Source: Roseivirga spongicola (GTDB taxonomy: Bacteria > Bacteroidota > Bacteroidia > Cytophagales > Cyclobacteriaceae). Taken from it: a stretch of 64,000 bases of DNA. The stretch covers positions 806,001-870,000 of the forward strand of contig NZ_LRPC01000028.1 of assembly GCF_001592965.1 (NCBI RefSeq), written 5' to 3'. This document shows positions 840 through 64,000 of this stretch, in pieces. The stretch's first letter is position 1. The number at the start of each line of letters is the position of its first letter. The position numbers and the translations under genes are program-made. The notes under the pieces are model-generated. The model did not search any database, had not been told where the DNA came from, and saw only the letters and a list, made by a program, of their open reading frames with translations.

Positions 840-1700
840 ATGAAATACTACACACGCATTCTAGTTTATATTGTACTACTTTTCTTCGCTGTCGGTTTCT
901 TGCAGATAGTTGGTGCTTTAATGGTAGGAGTCGGTTTCGATGAAATAACAGGGAGTGGAAATGAGCTTACCTTAATGGAGGACACTATAATCTCCTACTT
1001 CGGATTGGCAGGCACCATTGCTCTATTCTTTTTTGCATTTCAGAAAATAGAAGAAATCTCTGTCCCAAAAAGTTTCTTTTCTACTCATCAACTTAAAAGA
1101 GATACTCTCTTGGCAGTGATTACAGTAGTTTCAATTATTGGGATTGGTACGGCAATTTTATTGCTTTCTAATCAAATATCTTTAACCCCACTCCCCTTTG
1201 ATGGCGGAATTGTTTTAACAACTTTTCTTCTTTTTGTAAGCGTTTCAATTCAGGAGGAATTGTTTTGTAGAGGGCTAATCCAAAAGACCTTAATGAGATC
1301 TATCCCACCATACACCGCCCTTGCTGTAGCTTCGTTCCTTTTTGCCTTACTGCATGCCTTCAACCCTAACTTATCACTCCTCGGCTTTATCAACTTGACC
1401 TTGTCTGGAGTTCTATTAGGCTTAGTATTTATGCATACTGAGAATCTTTGGTTTTGCTTTGTAGCCCACTTGATATGGAACTTTATACAAGCCCCGTTCT
1501 TAGGATTCAATGTAAGTGGGAATGAAATTCAATCAATAACACAGATCCAACTTTATGGACCTTCTTATCTAACAGGCGGTAAATTTGGTTATGAAGGATC
1601 AATTCTGTGCACAACCCTTTCAGTAATTGCCATATTCATTCTAGACTTGTACTTCAGAAAAAGAAACAAAGAATCAGTAAGACTTTCTGACATTGGCTAA
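840..1700 (+). CDS. CPBP family intramembrane metalloprotease
   Basis: A 286-residue polytopic membrane protein with about eight hydrophobic segments. It carries the CPBP (CAAX protease / bacteriocin-processing) motifs: EExxxR at E139-E140-R144 (QEELFCRG), FxxxH ending at H172 (FALLH) and a later membrane His in HLIWNF. In the family these Glu and His residues form the active site, which cleaves substrates inside the membrane; some members give bacteriocin immunity or modify prenylated proteins. It starts 17 bases after the nuclease and is probably co-transcribed with it. The substrate cannot be told from sequence. An inverted-repeat element follows the stop directly. Confidence 0.9.
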   Translation: MKYYTRILVYIVLLFFAVGFLQIVGALMVGVGFDEITGSGNELTLMEDTIISYFGLAGTIALFFFAFQKIEEISVPKSFFSTHQLKRDTLLAVITVVSIIGIGTAILLLSNQISLTPLPFDGGIVLTTFLLFVSVSIQEELFCRGLIQKTLMRSIPPYTALAVASFLFALLHAFNPNLSLLGFINLTLSGVLLGLVFMHTENLWFCFVAHLIWNFIQAPFLGFNVSGNEIQSITQIQLYGPSYLTGGKFGYEGSILCTTLSVIAIFILDLYFRKRNKESVRLSDIG

Positions 1701-1850
1701 AAAGCTGTCTCACAAGCCATTAGTCCTCTGGTTTTTAAAGTGACTAGAAGTCTTTATCGAACCAGAAAACCTCCAATGTGGAGAGATTCTCTCTTATTTA
1801 GTATGTTGGAGAGAAATAAAGATTAGCTCTTGAGACAGCCTCTTTTACAC
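1701..1850. repeat. Intergenic inverted-repeat element (diverged copy), possible bidirectional terminator
   Basis: The gap between two convergent genes is bounded by GCTGTCTCA (1704-1712) and its exact complement TGAGACAGC (1831-1839), followed by CTCTTTT. The interior holds a second, shorter pairing (CTGGTT with AACCAG). The ends resemble those of the elements at 40147-40285 and 62777-62890, but the interior differs. Transcribed either way it should fold into a long hairpin, so it may end transcripts from both sides. Confidence 0.55.
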
Positions 1851-37764: not shown

Positions 37765-39723
37765 ATGATATACACACCAAAGAGATCCGTTCAGAATATC
37801 ATCTTAAACTTCGGTTCAATCTTCACATTGATAGTGGCTGCAGTGGTGTTGATAGGCTGGATTTTGAGCTACGAGCCAGTGCTCAGCCTTATTCCAGACG
37901 CAGCAACCATGAAAGCAAATACTGCTTTAGGTTTCTTGATAGTCGGATCTATTGGTTTTCTATTCACCAAGAAAGGAGCATTTTTAAAAACTCTAGTAAA
38001 ATCTTTGGCCGTGCTGCTATCGGTACTGGCTCTTCTGACTCTTTTAGAGTACATTTTCGATATCTCTTTGGGTATTGACAGCCTTTTAGTAGAAGATGCT
38101 TTTTCTTCGGTAGTAAGAAACCGGATGTCGCCAGCTACGGCCAGCTGCTTTTTACTTATTGGTGTAGGCGTATTGGTTTTTAACCGTAATAGAGTTAAAA
38201 GTCTTATGGCCTCACAATTCATTTGGCTTTTAGTAATTGTTACAGCCTTCATTTCTATAGTTACCTATATTCTAAATATACCTGCTGAGCAAAAGACGGA
38301 GCTTTTTAGCTCTATGGCTATTCATACCTCGGCACTTTTTGGTTTAATGGGTTTAGGGCTTTTCTTTCAGACTTCTGCCACTGGATTTGCTGCACTAATA
38401 ACCGGCCCTTTGCCTGGAAGCCGAATTACTAGAAGGTTGCTGCCTTTTACTATTACCGTTCCTCTAGCTCTCAGCTATTTGTTCTTTTACCTATCGGTAC
38501 AATCTACTGTAGACATTCCTAGTAGTCTTTGGGTTATTGTAAATACCATCTCACTCATCATTTTAAGCATTGTTTATATCTCCATTATGGCCATTGGCTT
38601 GAATAAATCGGCTAAAAAGGAAACATCGCTTCAGCAAAATCTTAAATCTTCTATCCATACCTTGGGTAGTTTTAAGAAAGCAATAGATAAAACATCTATT
38701 GTATCTGAGTTAGATAGCCAAGGAGCTATAACCGACATTAACGAAAACTTTGAACTACTCACTGGATATACAAAAGATGAAGTAGTGGGTAAGCCATACA
38801 CCAGTCTTTTGGAGCTAAATGAAGAAATTACTGAAACCATTTTAAACAACTTAAGTGCCGATGGTTTATGGGTTGGTGAGGTAGAAAGAAAAGCCAAAAG
38901 CGGGAAGCTCTGGGTTCATAGCTCTGTGGTTGAAGATAAGCCTCCGGGAAGCCCAACCAAGTACTTTATGGTTGAGCAAGATATTTCTTTGCGTAAGCAA
39001 AATGAAATATTAAAAGACATACAGTTTATGCAGAAGCTCAGACAGAAAAATAAAGAGCTAGAGCAGTTCCTCTATATTGCCTCACATGATCTTCAAGAGC
39101 CTTTGAGATCGATAAGAAGTATGTTAGAGCTGCTTAAACTGGAGCTAAATGATAAGCTTGACGAACAAACTACAGTATTCATGGACCTAGTAGACTCATC
39201 TGCCAATCGTATGTCTGACTTGGTAAAAGGTTTAATGGACTACGCCAGATTGGGCAATCAGAAGGAGCTAGAGCATACAGACTTGAATAAGTTAGTTACA
39301 GATGTGCTATCTGACATTGGCCAGTCTATTAATGATCACGATGCTGATATAGAGAAATCTAAACTTCCTTCATTGGATATTTATCCAGTAGAAATCAGAC
39401 TGCTTTTTCAGAACTTATTAAGCAATGCTATAAAGTTTCGTAAACCAGATACCCCTCCTCAAATTAGTATTAGTGCAGTGGAAAAAGGACTGTTTTGGCA
39501 ATTTCAAATAAAGGATAATGGCATCGGTATAAAAGAAGAACATCAGCAGAAAATATTTCTTATTTTTCAGCGCCTAAATAAGAAAGAGGAGTTTGAAGGA
39601 ACCGGAATTGGGCTAGCTCACTGCATGAAAATCATATCGCTGCACGGTGGCGAGTTGTGGGTAGAATCTAAACCCAATGAGGGCTCCAGTTTTTTCTTCA
39701 CACTCCCGAAAAAACAATTTTAA
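37765..39723 (+). CDS. Membrane sensor histidine kinase with PAS domain
   Basis: 652 residues. The N-terminal half (to about residue 280) has roughly seven or eight hydrophobic helices forming a membrane sensor resembling MASE-type modules, with a conserved-looking PDAATMKANTALGFL. A PAS domain follows (about 300-415; GAITDINENFELLTGYTKDEVVG), then a phytochrome-like HisKA with H441 (LYIASHDLQEPLRSIRSM) and HATPase motifs (NLLSNAIKFRKP, DNGIGIKEE, GTGIGLAHCMKI). The response regulator gene begins four bases after its stop, giving a complete two-component pair. Confidence 0.92.
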   Translation: MIYTPKRSVQNIILNFGSIFTLIVAAVVLIGWILSYEPVLSLIPDAATMKANTALGFLIVGSIGFLFTKKGAFLKTLVKSLAVLLSVLALLTLLEYIFDISLGIDSLLVEDAFSSVVRNRMSPATASCFLLIGVGVLVFNRNRVKSLMASQFIWLLVIVTAFISIVTYILNIPAEQKTELFSSMAIHTSALFGLMGLGLFFQTSATGFAALITGPLPGSRITRRLLPFTITVPLALSYLFFYLSVQSTVDIPSSLWVIVNTISLIILSIVYISIMAIGLNKSAKKETSLQQNLKSSIHTLGSFKKAIDKTSIVSELDSQGAITDINENFELLTGYTKDEVVGKPYTSLLELNEEITETILNNLSADGLWVGEVERKAKSGKLWVHSSVVEDKPPGSPTKYFMVEQDISLRKQNEILKDIQFMQKLRQKNKELEQFLYIASHDLQEPLRSIRSMLELLKLELNDKLDEQTTVFMDLVDSSANRMSDLVKGLMDYARLGNQKELEHTDLNKLVTDVLSDIGQSINDHDADIEKSKLPSLDIYPVEIRLLFQNLLSNAIKFRKPDTPPQISISAVEKGLFWQFQIKDNGIGIKEEHQQKIFLIFQRLNKKEEFEGTGIGLAHCMKIISLHGGELWVESKPNEGSSFFFTLPKKQF

Positions 39724-39727
39724 CAAA

Positions 39728-40141
39728 ATGAAAGCGGATCTAAAGGTACTTTTGGTGGACGATGATAAAGCCACAAACCTTTACAACCAGTATAATCTCA
39801 AAAAACTGGGTTGTTGCAAAAGCATAGATGTGGCTCTGAACGGACAAGAGGCCATAGAGTTTTTAACCTCAAAAGACGAGGAGGGTAATCATCCCCAACC
39901 TCATCTTATATTTTTAGATATTAATATGCCATTGGTAGATGGATGGGAGTTTTTAGAATTATATGATCAACTAAGTGAGGAGCAAAAAGGCGATGTAATT
40001 GTAGTTATGCTTACCACCTCGGTAAATCAAGACGATTTTAAAAAGGCAGAAGCTAACCCCCACATAAAAGACTTCAAGTCTAAACCACTGACGATAGATA
40101 AAATGCAAGAGCTTATTGAAAGCTATTGGGAGTCTAAGTAA
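39728..40141 (+). CDS. Single-domain response regulator
   Basis: 137 residues from the ATG at 39728, immediately after the kinase stop; the longer frame from 39677 overlaps the kinase. It is a stand-alone receiver of the CheY/Rcp1 kind: acidic patch D11-D12-D13, phospho-acceptor D64 (LIFLDINMPLVDGWEF), Thr in VVMLTTSV and Lys in FKSKPL. There is no output domain, so it likely acts through protein interaction or as a phosphorelay step. It is the partner of the kinase at 37765-39723. Confidence 0.93.
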   Translation: MKADLKVLLVDDDKATNLYNQYNLKKLGCCKSIDVALNGQEAIEFLTSKDEEGNHPQPHLIFLDINMPLVDGWEFLELYDQLSEEQKGDVIVVMLTTSVNQDDFKKAEANPHIKDFKSKPLTIDKMQELIESYWESK

Positions 40142-40146
40142 GACAC

Positions 40147-40285
40147 AAAAAAAGAGGCTATCTCAAAAGTTAACTGTCATTCCCGACTCCGATCGGGAAT
40201 CTCCTAGGCGGACTTCATTGGCCGGAAGAGATTCCCAGTCAAGCTGCGAATGACGAAAATAGTAGCTTTTGAGATAGCCTCTTTT
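40147..40285. repeat. MITE-like intergenic inverted-repeat element, copy B
   Basis: Terminal inverted repeats AAAGAGGCTATCTCAAAAG (40151-40169) and their complement ending in AGCCTCTTTT (40276-40285). The inside has two pairs of TCATTCCC / GGGAAT-type blocks. Reversed, the copy at 62777-62890 matches it through most of its length. It lies between two convergent genes and can act as a terminator both ways. Confidence 0.8.
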
Positions 40286-40305: not shown

Positions 40306-42510
40306 CTAACCCAAGTTCAAAGACATCTCGTTACTTGCATACGGTTGATTATACAACCTTGTACCGGTTGCTTTGTAAAGCGCACTAGCCAATGCTCCAA
40401 TAGCAGGTGGTAATCCAGGTTCTCCAAGCCCCGTTGGCGAAATGTCATTATCTACAAAGTGTACTTCAATTTCTCTTGGTGCCTGATTGTTCCGAATTAG
40501 TTTATAAGAATCGAAATTGCTTTGCATAGGTGAACCATTTTCAAAAGTGAGTTGGCTATACAATGCATGTCCTATGCCATCTACCACTCCGCCTTGAATT
40601 ATGTTCTCTGCTCCTTCTTTGTTAATTAGAATACCGCAATCTACAGCACACCATACCTTTTTCACTTTCGGCTGGTTGTTTTCCATTACTACATCCATTA
40701 CCTGAGCCACATAAGAGTTATGGCAGAAGTAAGCAGCAACACCTCTATAAACACCATCTTGTTCAGTGCCCCAGTTTGCTTTTTCCTTTACTAGTTTAAG
40801 CACGCCAGCGTAACGTTCGGCATCGTACTCGTATTTCTCTCCTACCGGGTTATTCATTGCCTTATCGAATAACTCCAACCTGAAATCAATTGGGTCTTTA
40901 CCAGCTGCTTCTGCAACCTCATCTAAAAAGCTTTGCTCTGCCCCAGCAGTGAAGTGCGACCTTGGAGCTCGCCATGCTCCAGTAGAAATATTTGTGCTAG
41001 ACATAACCGATTCTGCCGAATAGTTATCTACAGCTCCAGCAGGGAATCTATTAGGGAAAATAGGACCTTCTGGCAAGCCAACTCCTCTTGCTGAGAAAGC
41101 TATGAGGTTATTATCCTCATCCAAACCGGCTTTATAAACCGATCTATAAGTAGGTCGATATGTTCCTTGGGTCATATCGTCCTCACGTGTGTAAATAAGT
41201 TTGATTGGTGCGCCAGCTTGTTTTGAAATTGCTGCTGCTTCAATTCCCGTGTGGTTATAAAGTCTTCTACCGAAACCTCCACCCATACGAGTCATATCTA
41301 CTGTTACATTTTCTGCAGGAATCCCTAATAACTGTACAACTGAATCTTTTAAGGCTTGAGGTGTCTGACTCGGGCCTACAAGCTCAGCCGATGTATCAGT
41401 TACATGAGCAAAAAAGTTCTGAGGCTCCAATGTGTTATGAGCCATAAATGGAGAAGTATATGTTCTCTCTATTACTTTAGCAGCCTTAGCAAAAGCAGCA
41501 TTAAAATCACCGTCTTTTCGGCTTCCACCAACTCTACCCTTTTCTAGGTCAGCAATCAGTTTCTTCTCATGCATTTCAGAGTTCTCTGGTTCACTTACCT
41601 TCTCCCAATCTACCTTCAGTGCTTTCTTTGCCTGCATTAACTGCCAAGTTGAGTCTCCAACTATTGCTATCAATTTGTTGAAGGCATTTACATCTGACCA
41701 TTGTGGTTTCTCCAAAGTAGTATCTACAATAAATGCATCAGACACACCTGGCATAGCCTTTATTTCATCTACATTGAAGTCTTTCGGTTGCATACCAAAT
41801 GCTGGTGGGTGCTGGATCATAGCCAACTTCATTCCCTCGCGTTTGAAATCTAGTCCAAAAAGAGGCTTTCCTGTTACAATTTTAGGACCTTCTACATTCT
41901 TCTGAGCCGTACCAATAAGCTTGTAGTCTTTAGGGTCTTTTAGCTCTAGTTCTTCTGGAACTTCGATTCCAACAGCTTTGGAGGCTATTTCACCATACCC
42001 AATAGACCTGCTTCCGTCTTTCTCTGTGATTACTCCTTCGCTAGCAGTAAGTTCGTCAAGACCTACGCCCCATTCTTTTGCAGCTGCTTCCATGAGCATA
42101 CGTTTACCCGCAGCACCAGCCATACGCAAGGCATTCCAAGCCATCATAATAGATAAGCTCCCCCCAGCAAACTGAGGATTTTTAAAAGCATCTGAATCTA
42201 AGGCACCTTGTTCAACCACTACGTTTTTCCAAGGAGCATCTAACTCTTCTGCCACAATCATTGGCATAGAAGTCATTACATTTTGGCCAATCTCTGGGTT
42301 TGGAGAGTAGATTGTGACCATTCCAGTATCTCCAATTTTGATGTAGCCGTTTATTTCGAACCACTCATTTGGATAAGCCACCGTTTCGGACTCTTTAGAA
42401 ATGGCCGAGCAGCTTGTTAACCAATTGAACCCTATGAGCATTCCTCCTCCTGCGGCAGCAGAGGTTTTCAGAAAGGATCTTCTTCCTACTTTCGTTTTAA
42501 TTATAGTCAT
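40306..42510 (-). CDS. Molybdopterin-binding hydroxylase large subunit (IorB / xanthine dehydrogenase family)
   Basis: 734 residues, a typical length for isoquinoline 1-oxidoreductase beta-like subunits. A Tat signal, KVGRRSFLKTSAAAGGG, places it in the periplasm. Molybdopterin-binding signatures include RMGGGFGRRLYNH, STGAWRAPRSHF and the C-terminal GLGEPGLPPAIGALASALY, where Glu in GEPG is the catalytic base. It oxidises aldehydes or N-heterocycles with water as oxygen source. The small [2Fe-2S] subunit lies 11 bases upstream. No FAD subunit or cytochrome c gene is next to them, as in IorAB systems that pass electrons to cytochromes. Confidence 0.92.
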   Translation of the reverse strand: MTIIKTKVGRRSFLKTSAAAGGGMLIGFNWLTSCSAISKESETVAYPNEWFEINGYIKIGDTGMVTIYSPNPEIGQNVMTSMPMIVAEELDAPWKNVVVEQGALDSDAFKNPQFAGGSLSIMMAWNALRMAGAAGKRMLMEAAAKEWGVGLDELTASEGVITEKDGSRSIGYGEIASKAVGIEVPEELELKDPKDYKLIGTAQKNVEGPKIVTGKPLFGLDFKREGMKLAMIQHPPAFGMQPKDFNVDEIKAMPGVSDAFIVDTTLEKPQWSDVNAFNKLIAIVGDSTWQLMQAKKALKVDWEKVSEPENSEMHEKKLIADLEKGRVGGSRKDGDFNAAFAKAAKVIERTYTSPFMAHNTLEPQNFFAHVTDTSAELVGPSQTPQALKDSVVQLLGIPAENVTVDMTRMGGGFGRRLYNHTGIEAAAISKQAGAPIKLIYTREDDMTQGTYRPTYRSVYKAGLDEDNNLIAFSARGVGLPEGPIFPNRFPAGAVDNYSAESVMSSTNISTGAWRAPRSHFTAGAEQSFLDEVAEAAGKDPIDFRLELFDKAMNNPVGEKYEYDAERYAGVLKLVKEKANWGTEQDGVYRGVAAYFCHNSYVAQVMDVVMENNQPKVKKVWCAVDCGILINKEGAENIIQGGVVDGIGHALYSQLTFENGSPMQSNFDSYKLIRNNQAPREIEVHFVDNDISPTGLGEPGLPPAIGALASALYKATGTRLYNQPYASNEMSLNLG

Positions 42511-62205: not shown

Positions 62206-62778
62206 GTGGATGAATTACTAAACCAAATTGAGCAATGCACTATTTGCCAGCAACACCTGCCTCTGGGGCCAAGGCCTGTAGTTCGTGCCCATGTCAAATC
62301 TAAGATTCTAATTATTGGACAAGCTCCAGGATCCAGAGTACATGAATCAGGAATTCCTTGGAATGACCCTTCGGGTAGAAACCTGAGAAAGTGGATGAAT
62401 ATTTCAGAAGAGGAATTCTATAACCCAGAGCTGTTCGCCATAGTGCCAATGGGCTTTTGCTATCCTGGAAGGGGAAAGTCTGGAGACTTACCTCCTCGCC
62501 CAGAATGTGCCCCAACATGGCATAATAAGCTCCTCAATAAAATGCAGAATATAGAACTTACGCTTCTTATCGGTCAATATGCTCAGGGCTACTATTTAGA
62601 AGGCAGAAAGAAGACTTTAACCGAAACGGTAAGATCTTTTGAAGACTATTTACCAAACTACTTTCCGTTGGTTCACCCCTCTCCTAGAAATGGAATTTGG
62701 ATGCGTAAAAATCCATGGTTTGAAGAAGGGGTTCTACCTGAACTAAAGAAGATAGTTCATGATGTTCTTAAACAATAA
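62206..62778 (+). CDS. Uracil-DNA glycosylase superfamily protein, four-cysteine type
   Basis: 190 residues starting at GTG 62206. Four Cys (C11, C14, C85, C101) have the spacing that binds [4Fe-4S] in family 4/5 uracil-DNA glycosylases. Motif A appears as IIGQAPGSR (family 4: GEAPG) and the C-terminal motif as HPSPRN (His-Pro-Ser). The segment GIPWNDPSGRNLRKWMN replaces the usual GxPFxGxxG loop, so substrate choice may differ from standard UDG. It is predicted to remove damaged bases from DNA, but this subgroup is not the classical family 1 enzyme. Confidence 0.85.
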   Translation: MDELLNQIEQCTICQQHLPLGPRPVVRAHVKSKILIIGQAPGSRVHESGIPWNDPSGRNLRKWMNISEEEFYNPELFAIVPMGFCYPGRGKSGDLPPRPECAPTWHNKLLNKMQNIELTLLIGQYAQGYYLEGRKKTLTETVRSFEDYLPNYFPLVHPSPRNGIWMRKNPWFEEGVLPELKKIVHDVLKQ

Positions 62779-62890
62779 AGGAGGCCATCCCTGAAGCTAC
62801 TATATTCGTCATTCCCAGCTTGACTGGGAATCTCCCGATATGTCGGGACGGAGTCGGGAATGACAGTTAGCTTTTGAGAGAGCCTCCTTT
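62777..62890. repeat. MITE-like intergenic inverted-repeat element, copy C (inverted)
   Basis: Begins inside the stop codon of the glycosylase gene with AAAGGAGGCC (62777-62786) and ends with AGCCTCCTTT (62881-62890). Inside are ATTCGTCATTCCC and GTCGGGAATGACAG. Its reverse complement follows copy B at 40147-40285 closely, with an internal TCCCGA/TCGGGA hairpin substituted. It separates two convergent genes. Confidence 0.8.
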
Positions 62891-62911: not shown

Positions 62912-64000
62912 TTACTTATCTATCTTAAGAGACTCTTCATCTTTATTAATCACTACTGGTTTTCCTAATCCAGTATTATTCAATCTTTGTAGCTGAGTTT
63001 TTCCATCTCCAACCACAACGTATACCAAGTTATCAGGATTCATAAACTCGTCAATCACTTGCTTGATCTCCGCCTTATCCATAGCTTTTAGCTTGGTTTC
63101 ATCCTTTTCTATATAATCTAATGGCAGCTCGTAAGTAGAAATATTCTGAAGAATACCCAATAGACTACCGTATGTCTCGTAAGACTGCGTATTACTTCTC
63201 AAAATTGAATTCTTGGTTACCTCCAAATCCTCATCTGAGAAATCGGTACTATAGTTATCTAACAAGTCCTTAAATAGATCTACAGATTCTCTGGTTACAT
63301 TACTCCTTACGCTTGAAGAAGCCTGAAAAACAGCACCATCCATAGTTCGGCTGTAACCAGAATAAGCGCCATAAGTATAGCCCTTCTCAAGTCTCAACTC
63401 CTTAAACAAGATTGAACCTGAACCTGAACCTAAACGGTAATTAGAAACCGAAGCTGCCGAATAATCATCGTTACCATCTTCCATGGCAATTCGTCCGATA
63501 TTGATGACCGATTGTTTTGCATCTGGATAATCTACAAAGAAGATTCTGGACTCTTCAGTATTAGTTTTCACCTCATACTCCGGAAAGGTTACGTCTTTAG
63601 CAATCCATAACTCCAATGGCTCCAAAGAAGTCATTACCTCATCTTTAGAAATTGCACCTACAAAATGGAAGGAAGCCACAGATGGAGAAAAATTATCTCT
63701 ATAATAGTCTTTTAAGTCTTCAAGTGTGATACTAGAAACTGACTCCATTGTGCCCGAAGTTGGCTTAGAGAAAATATGATCTTTACCATAAAGCACTTCA
63801 TTGAAAACACGAGATGCTATTGCATTCGGGTTGGCATTAGACTGCTGTATGGAGTTGATAGCAGAACTTTTGATTCTTTCAAACTCCTTCTCATCCCAAC
63901 GTGGTTCTAACAAAATTTCCTTTACTAAAGTCAATACCTCATCATAGTTTTTGGCCAAAGAGTTACCAGAAATGGTAATGTATTCTCTAGAAGATGAAAC
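62912..64000 (-). CDS. M16 (insulinase-like) peptidase, C-terminal part (5' end outside window)
   Basis: The frame is open to base 64000, so at least 363 C-terminal residues are present and the start is outside. The visible part is the M16 C-terminal half: LTLVKEILLEPRWDEKEFERIKSSAI, ASRVFNEVLYGKDHIFSKP, LEDLKDYYRDNFSPSVASFHFVGAI and LFKELRLEKGYTYGAYSGYSR, which is the conserved R/Y pair region of the inactive lobe. The zinc motif HxxEH would lie upstream and cannot be judged. Bacterial pairs of M16 proteins act in the periplasm. A stop is followed by the repeat element. Confidence 0.9.
   Translation of the reverse strand, partial: VSSSREYITISGNSLAKNYDEVLTLVKEILLEPRWDEKEFERIKSSAINSIQQSNANPNAIASRVFNEVLYGKDHIFSKPTSGTMESVSSITLEDLKDYYRDNFSPSVASFHFVGAISKDEVMTSLEPLELWIAKDVTFPEYEVKTNTEESRIFFVDYPDAKQSVINIGRIAMEDGNDDYSAASVSNYRLGSGSGSILFKELRLEKGYTYGAYSGYSRTMDGAVFQASSSVRSNVTRESVDLFKDLLDNYSTDFSDEDLEVTKNSILRSNTQSYETYGSLLGILQNISTYELPLDYIEKDETKLKAMDKAEIKQVIDEFMNPDNLVYVVVGDGKTQLQRLNNTGLGKPVVINKDEESLKIDK

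Follow-up and report, generated by a model that had tools for sequence, protein, structure and literature searches.

Inverted-repeat elements at gene 3' ends best explained as IS1182-type MITEs with a REP-pair cargo

Between two convergent genes in the window analyzed here (the whole 64-kb stretch of DNA, G000:C28:806001-870000) lies a short inverted-repeat sequence (40147-40285; G000:C28:846147-846285 in genome coordinates), which raises the question whether it is a mobile or amplified element, as the original prediction proposed, or a terminator retained in place by descent. The sequence recurs in reverse orientation at 62777-62890, and the two copies have, as predicted, common ends and most of the interior in common, including TGTCATTCCCGACTCCG. 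The terminal repeats are as originally described in the 40147 copy, but in the 62777 copy the left arm is degraded (GAGGCCATCCCTGAAGC) and a deletion of the interior runs through the first of the two REPs. The start of this copy does fall within a stop codon, the TAA of 62776-62778. The third, more diverged relative proposed near the start of the window has the arms, but its REP pair is not recognisable (Table 1).

Table 1. Element copies in the window, their parts, and the adjacent open reading frames (ORFs)
Feature	Position	Strand	Basis
Full-length composite	40147..40285	+	BLAST, alignment, profile
Left arm GAGGCTATCTCAAAAG, IS1182-type terminal inverted repeat	40154..40169	+	read from sequence
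REP 1, tag TGTC and stem-loop ATTCCCGA/TCGGGAAT	40175..40200	+	REP scan
REP 2, tag CGTC and stem-loop, one stem mismatch relative to the usual form	40231..40255	-	
Right arm, minus strand reads GAGGCTATCTCAAAAG	40266..40281	-	read from sequence
Copy with internal deletion, starts within the stop codon of the upstream ORF	62777..62890	-	
Degraded arm GAGGCCATCCCTGAAGC of the 62777 copy	62781..62797		
REP 2 of the 62777 copy	62807..62831	+	
Second arm of the 62777 copy	62870..62886	-	read from sequence
Diverged relative, arms kept, REP pair not recognisable	1697..1849	-	profile search
Upstream convergent ORF, 154 aa, response-regulator-like	39677..40141	+	by eye
Downstream convergent ORF, 734 aa, molybdopterin-oxidoreductase-like	40306..42510	-	by eye
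Upstream convergent ORF, 190 aa, uracil-DNA-glycosylase-like	62206..62778	+	by eye
Downstream convergent ORF, at least 348 aa (open to the window end), M16-peptidase-like	62912..63958	-	by eye

A BLAST search with the 40147 element against its own genome (G000, 4.48 Mb) yielded 38 matches at E <= 0.001, so that the further copies on which the mobility claim depended exist; 15 of these are near full length (at least 95 nt aligned), and both orientations are represented. Among 39 genomes of the genus, family and order (own included), 8 match the element, all of them from the same genus, and no match was found in the 20 other genera of this set. Full-length composites are present in G000, G015, G016 and G018, that is, in the species under study and three more of the genus; the other four matching genomes contain short partial matches only. 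A profile of 35 copies hits the 40147 and 62777 copies, which it itself contains, with E-values of 5.6e-41 and 1e-27, and picks up the diverged relative on the minus strand through its arms (E 4e-10). The fold of the 40147 copy lies 8.6 and 9.4 standard deviations below dinucleotide shuffles on the two strands, and Rfam at gathering thresholds matched nothing in the window. The element is thus real and above chance level: its copies are many, dispersed, short (114-163 bp) and non-coding, with terminal inverted repeats, as in MITEs, and the proposal of a mobile or amplified inverted-repeat element is supported in part by copies scattered in both orientations at gene 3' ends. The sets used for context and alignment comprise copies aligned over at least 95 nt, with duplicate loci (L025, L026, L041, L043, L048 and L049) excluded; the alignment (A2, 35 rows) leaves out L097 and L110, both truncated, as well as the second copy of the L092 tandem, but these three do count among the 38 copies from four species analyzed below for placement. 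The L092 pair (L092:2380-3000; G016:C3:513900-514500), two composites in tandem 434 bp apart with like flanks, is a tandem duplication that takes in the element.

The outer inverted repeat of the element is GAGGCTRTCTCAAAAG, its arm motif being also written GAGGCTGTCTC, and the 35-copy consensus runs (A)n GAGGCTRTCTCAAAAGCTAAC - REP 1 - about 30 nt - reversed REP 2 - GAAAATAGTAGCTTTTGAGAYAGCCTC (T)n, where REP 1 is approximately YGTCATTCCCGACnCCGATCGGGAATCTC, REP 2 approximately CGTCATTCCCAGCTTGACTGGGAATCTC, and the pair is arranged head-to-head. The A and T runs beyond GAGGC...GCCTC differ from copy to copy. In each of the 35 rows of the alignment, linkers and arms accompany the REPs, and this conservation of the arm-REP linkers indicates that the composite is copied as a single unit. 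An additional small palindrome is found within the REP 1 loop in six G000 copies and one from G016 (L095), and within the REP 2 loop in 5 of the 12 G018 copies in the alignment. Changes on both sides are seen in 16 of the 22 outer-stem pairs and, over the structure as a whole, in 40 cells; shuffles give 11 such cells and slid registers no more than 18. Such double-sided changes speak for a stem that is kept, a pattern that templated palindrome repair could also produce.

The placement of the copies is non-uniform with respect to the flanking genes. With ORFs called mechanically at a minimum of 80 aa, 19 of the 38 copies from the four species lie between convergent ORFs, 19 between co-directional ones and none between divergent ones, compared with 6 convergent, 32 co-directional and 9 divergent gaps of at least 30 bp in the window (p 0.0003 and 0.004, values that are generous because the copies are related). 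The convergent setting described for all three window copies therefore stands for these, but applies to only half of the larger set. A stop codon is located within 30 bp of 31 of the 38 copies by manual count, and T runs accompany many copies, although not all. The fold, the stem covariation and the position at gene ends fit a two-way intrinsic terminator; a simple terminator scan, confined to loops of 3-8 nt, yielded no hit. From this structure and placement, we infer that the element may act as a terminator for transcription from both sides.

The origin of the arms is suggested by their occurrence elsewhere in the order. The exact 15-mer AGGCTGTCTCAAAAG is present in 17 of 148 genomes, representing 11 of 79 genera (own included), and its reversed control pattern matches none of the 148. 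In three genomes from two other families of the same order (G150, G161 and G040), the motif is the edge of a multi-copy element: the 8, 6 and 7 left ends compared, respectively, are common from GAGGC inward and differ in their flanks (one G040 end has no remaining flank). The G161 ends, visible for about 75 nt up to contig ends, are 84% identical to those of G150, where the 16 nt of the arm precede an ORF, partial at a contig end, that matches the IS1182 model NF033551 (E 1.4e-54, 186 bits) as well as PF05598. G040 contains a 1.77-kb element in two copies, whose alignment (96.8% identity over 1,769 nt) begins exactly at GAGGC and ends exactly at GCCTC, so that the motif is present at both ends, with the 14 nt GAGGCTGTCTCAAA in common; the copy in L352 encodes a 551-aa protein of the IS1182 family (452 bits, with a cut-off of 270). 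A transposase with matching ends, one of the items that the original prediction proposed to look for, is thus found in G040 and, with one end visible beside the gene, in G150, but G000 itself has no pair of arms (at most one mismatch) at insertion-sequence spacing, and neither do the 19 genomes of the genus for exact arms, contig breaks being able to hide such a pair in both searches. The 114-163-bp element, which contains no IS1182 transposase gene, is at most a derivative of this family. Target-site duplications, the other expected mark of insertion, were not found (mean direct repeat 0.40, compared with 0.50 in shuffles), and the first six flanking bases are complementary beyond shuffles (9/500). 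The missing duplication does not exclude an IS1182-type MITE because IS1272, a member of the same family, makes none according to the accessible text of PMC4923244.

The main rival holds that the arms represent a terminator type common in the order, the loops of which were entered by REP pairs, and that the REP-filled loops spread by recombination between the short arms with no transposase involved, a scenario that we consider unlikely but that accounts for several observations. Many of the occurrences of the 15-mer are single short-loop hairpins, and because such hairpins bearing the arm motif are found in several species and genera, the motif may be, or may double as, a plain terminator type. 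Where G016 has a truncated composite (L097), G000 has a short arm-motif hairpin (L024), both flanks being orthologous, and in other species the arms surround quite different interiors; at the 40147 site, where none of six orthologues (at least 60% identity) has the composite, the G016 arms enclose another interior. Two sites are occupied in both G000 and G018, in opposite orientation at L004/L102 and in the same orientation at L009/L105, and there the same-site copies are 72.6% and 70.2% identical, as opposed to 84-90% identity to the best copy within the same species, so neither pair consists of nearest relatives; the comparison drew on an already collected set of loci and is not a census. 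Identity is only slightly higher within species (0.775) than between them (0.752; 23 of 5000 label shuffles as high), and the copy tree has little resolution (stars on 3 of its 32 inner branches), but 10 of the 12 G018 copies group with two G000 copies. Finally, the left arm of the 62777 copy (62781) matches 13 of 17 letters of the G015 hairpin at the same site, a post hoc comparison in which 5 of 20,000 shuffles scored as well.

Against this rival, the arm motif is the exact boundary, at both ends, of an IS1182-family element, and homologous recombination would have little to work with in arms measuring 16-20 bp. The 62777 site with its neighbours conserved in G015, G013, G001 and G002 points the same way: there, the same convergent gene pair encloses a plain hairpin of a different, non-arm sequence. 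G016 and G010 have an arm-like hairpin with different neighbours; in all, 15 other species of the genus possess the gene upstream of this site and none of the 15 has the composite there. At another site, L096/L079, G016 is filled and G000 is empty, the neighbouring genes being about 95% identical. The composite is thus present or absent at orthologous sites, where the original prediction had proposed to look for empty sites, but none of these comparisons provides an empty site that is exact to the letter.

The interior of the element has affiliations of its own. The two repeats conform to REP dimers, with a CGTC/TGTC tag, an 8-9 bp stem starting with AT, a short loop and head-to-head arrangement. 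In G000, a 99-aa GIY-YIG ORF (L111:1489-1788, contig C12) sits within a CGTC REP pair, the downstream member of which is identical, letter for letter over 28 nt, to the REP at 62807 and differs in one letter from REP 2 of the 40147 copy; a second GIY-YIG ORF (L112) lies within a REP pair of another stem, and the remaining 12 of the 14 PF01541 loci of G000 have no REP-scan match within 1.5 kb. Among the best 80 of 574 confirmed stretches with GIY-YIG relatives in genome_contigs, which span many phyla and include some incomplete flanks, REPs occur within 200 bp on the upstream side of the gene in 54 and on its downstream side in 51; 42 have them on both sides, and in 34 they surround the gene in head-to-head arrangement; counted per 200-bp bin, the two gene-adjacent bins contain 135 REPs, the next downstream bin 20 and the others at most 6 each. 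In viral_contigs, six pattern matches to the GIY-YIG protein were obtained and none was confirmed. By sequence, the inner REP pair appears to belong to a GIY-YIG system that is unrelated to the outer layer. The small nucleases beside these REPs are probably, we assume, members of the Ssn family, which was reportedly described in 2025 together with Neisseria repeats, and the association of REPs with GIY-YIG genes may for this reason already have been published; among the literature titles retrieved (GIY-YIG with REP or RAYT, Ssn, Neisseria transformation), none links GIY-YIG to REPs. Mobilisation by a RAYT or IS200-like enzyme was rejected: G000 has five Y1_Tnp genes, none with such a REP within 1.5 kb, and near these genes the arm is present only as three-mismatch look-alikes, so that the element does not belong with RAYT/REPIN systems.

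These findings bear on the second rival, under which mobility resides in the REP pair, which the GIY-YIG nuclease would move or copy by way of single-stranded hairpins, and the arms were acquired and hitchhike. The nuclease gene inside a REP pair in G000, the REPs beside most of the best 80 of the 574 relatives and the existence of REP pairs without arms (the L111 cluster) favor it, but the copying of linkers and arms with the REPs in every aligned row and the other interiors carried by arms elsewhere argue against it, and GIY-YIG nucleases are not known to have transposition activity; we regard this scenario as improbable. The occupancy of two sites in both G000 and G018 favors an immobile terminator conserved at orthologous positions by descent. 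This third reading is scarcely credible, and was rejected as the sole explanation, because the copies at these two sites are non-sisters, and orthologous sites are otherwise empty (L096/L079) or occupied by other hairpins, with the composite in none of the species or orthologues compared at the 62777 and 40147 sites; the exclusively orthologous distribution against which the original prediction had been set is accordingly not what is seen.

Several other arrangements were observed around the GIY-YIG genes and REPs. In L062:1200-2900 (G000:C12:255300-256800), REP-bounded 3' fragments of the GIY-YIG gene cluster by the intact copy and look as if they were deletion derivatives. In L146 (G018) and at G016:C2:71700-71977, the relatives that come closest to the cognate GIY-YIG gene in place or REP type are interrupted, with one in-frame stop each in the match listed, though G018 still has many composites. 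An array of four near-identical tandem GIY-YIG ORFs of another subfamily, spaced at about 412 bp (L120:930-2700; G000:C12, PF01541 75452-76904), directly follows an apparent tRNA gene, and every unit ends in a copy of the tRNA 3' end and terminator. In L075:1900-3400 (G000:C23:84795-86080), tandem units of about 289 bp each contain a CGTC REP pair of another stem type.

The explanation that we consider probable is an IS1182-type MITE with a REP pair as cargo that would insert into terminators and put a two-way hairpin of its own in their place. It is supported by the IS1182-type ends, the placement of the copies, the lack of target duplications, the non-sister copies at the shared sites, the covarying stem and the IS1272 precedent. 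An IS1182-type transposase would recognise the GAGGCTGTCTCAAAAG ends of the non-autonomous unit, which would insert, by the route described for IS1272, into the hairpins of existing terminators without target duplication; the A/T runs outside the arms would be the remnant of the former terminator, and the paired arms would form a new hairpin that stops transcription from both sides, which would make the insertion cheap for the host. The reading as a terminator-replacing IS1182-type MITE follows from the element having counterparts of all IS1272 features except the partial loss of the target. Clear same-site comparisons are few, and they do not cleanly show the remnants that the old hairpin should have left; the two sites common to G000 and G018 might instead represent ancient insertions, shared and later altered by conversion. 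This mechanism offers a reason for the location of repeats at gene 3' ends, namely that the machinery would seek terminator hairpins and the inserted unit would rebuild one.

The same arms appear with other cargo. Loci of other species and genera that were chosen for the arm motif contain 26 further distinct interiors of 40-300 nt between paired arms, close relatives being included, so that the independent origins are fewer. In 12 of the 26, GTCA lies close to one arm and TGAC close to the opposite arm, compared with 0.26 in shuffles (maximum 4 in 2000), and the REP types vary, for example GTCATTGCGAACG (G010), TGTCACATTGAGC (G059) and CGTCACCCTGAAC (G016); some of the other 14 show no sign of REPs (G012, G141). 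It is conceivable, and we suggest it tentatively, that IS1182-type MITEs of the order acquire, time and again, head-to-head REP pairs belonging to different families, giving rise to a nested element that renews terminators and leaves termination intact. Such an element would have two engines, a transposase seeking terminator hairpins on the outside and sites for a single-strand nuclease inside, and, if so, the terminators of the genome would keep turning over while termination persists. Separately, L254 (G016:C5:177400-180700) contains three near-identical elements of 165-166 bp, spaced at 1.7 and 1.3 kb, which have similar arms and a different interior.

The composite combines features of several known systems. 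As described in the accessible text of PMC4923244, the IS1182-family element IS1272 targets hairpins, which in many cases are terminators; its insertion bluntly removes a portion of the stem-loop and creates no duplication, and one terminator was entered repeatedly in both orientations. Like IS1272/TnSha1, the present element has IS1182-type ends, occupies gene 3' ends without target duplication and has entered one site in both orientations (L004/L102); unlike these, it is a 114-163-bp unit without a transposase gene and with a REP-pair interior, and no counterpart of the partial deletion of the target hairpin reported there was seen. Within the accessible text of a MITE review (PMC10969869), the word IS1182 does not occur. 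REPINs mobilised by RAYT transposases resemble the element in being gene-less inverted REP pairs, but here the tag is CGTC, not GTAG. Small REP-flanked GIY-YIG nuclease loci, as exemplified by L111, share the REP 2 of the 62777 copy, but, unlike these Ssn-like elements, the window element has no nuclease gene between its REPs.

CGTC REPs, including those of Bacteroidetes, are mostly head-to-head dimers and had no known dedicated enzyme or transposase in 2013, according to the parts accessible of Di Nocera et al. 2013 (PMC3733652); here, they are found beside a GIY-YIG nuclease gene in many phyla. The element shares with these dimers the tag, an 8-bp stem that begins with AT, a short loop, the organization as a head-to-head heterodimer and the position at convergent and unidirectional gene ends. 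It differs in the REP 1 loop (6 nt by scan and longer in several copies, compared with 4 or 5 in the families of that paper) and in the REP tail, CTC, where most CGTC REPs described there fit CCA. The nearest precedent for the nesting is H. neapolitanus, in which CGTC-1 dimers lie inside 41-bp palindromes (PMC3733652, section 7); in the accessible account that outer palindrome is given no tie to a transposase and no free occurrence, whereas the arms here match IS1182 ends and occur alone. The element provides a testable link between three separately described phenomena, namely the hairpin targeting of the IS1182 family (PMC4923244), the nesting of REP dimers in larger palindromes (section 7 of PMC3733652) and the CGTC REPs that are found here beside GIY-YIG genes, and is best explained as a variant on these known themes, a MITE with IS1182-type ends and a REP cargo that is seated in terminators.
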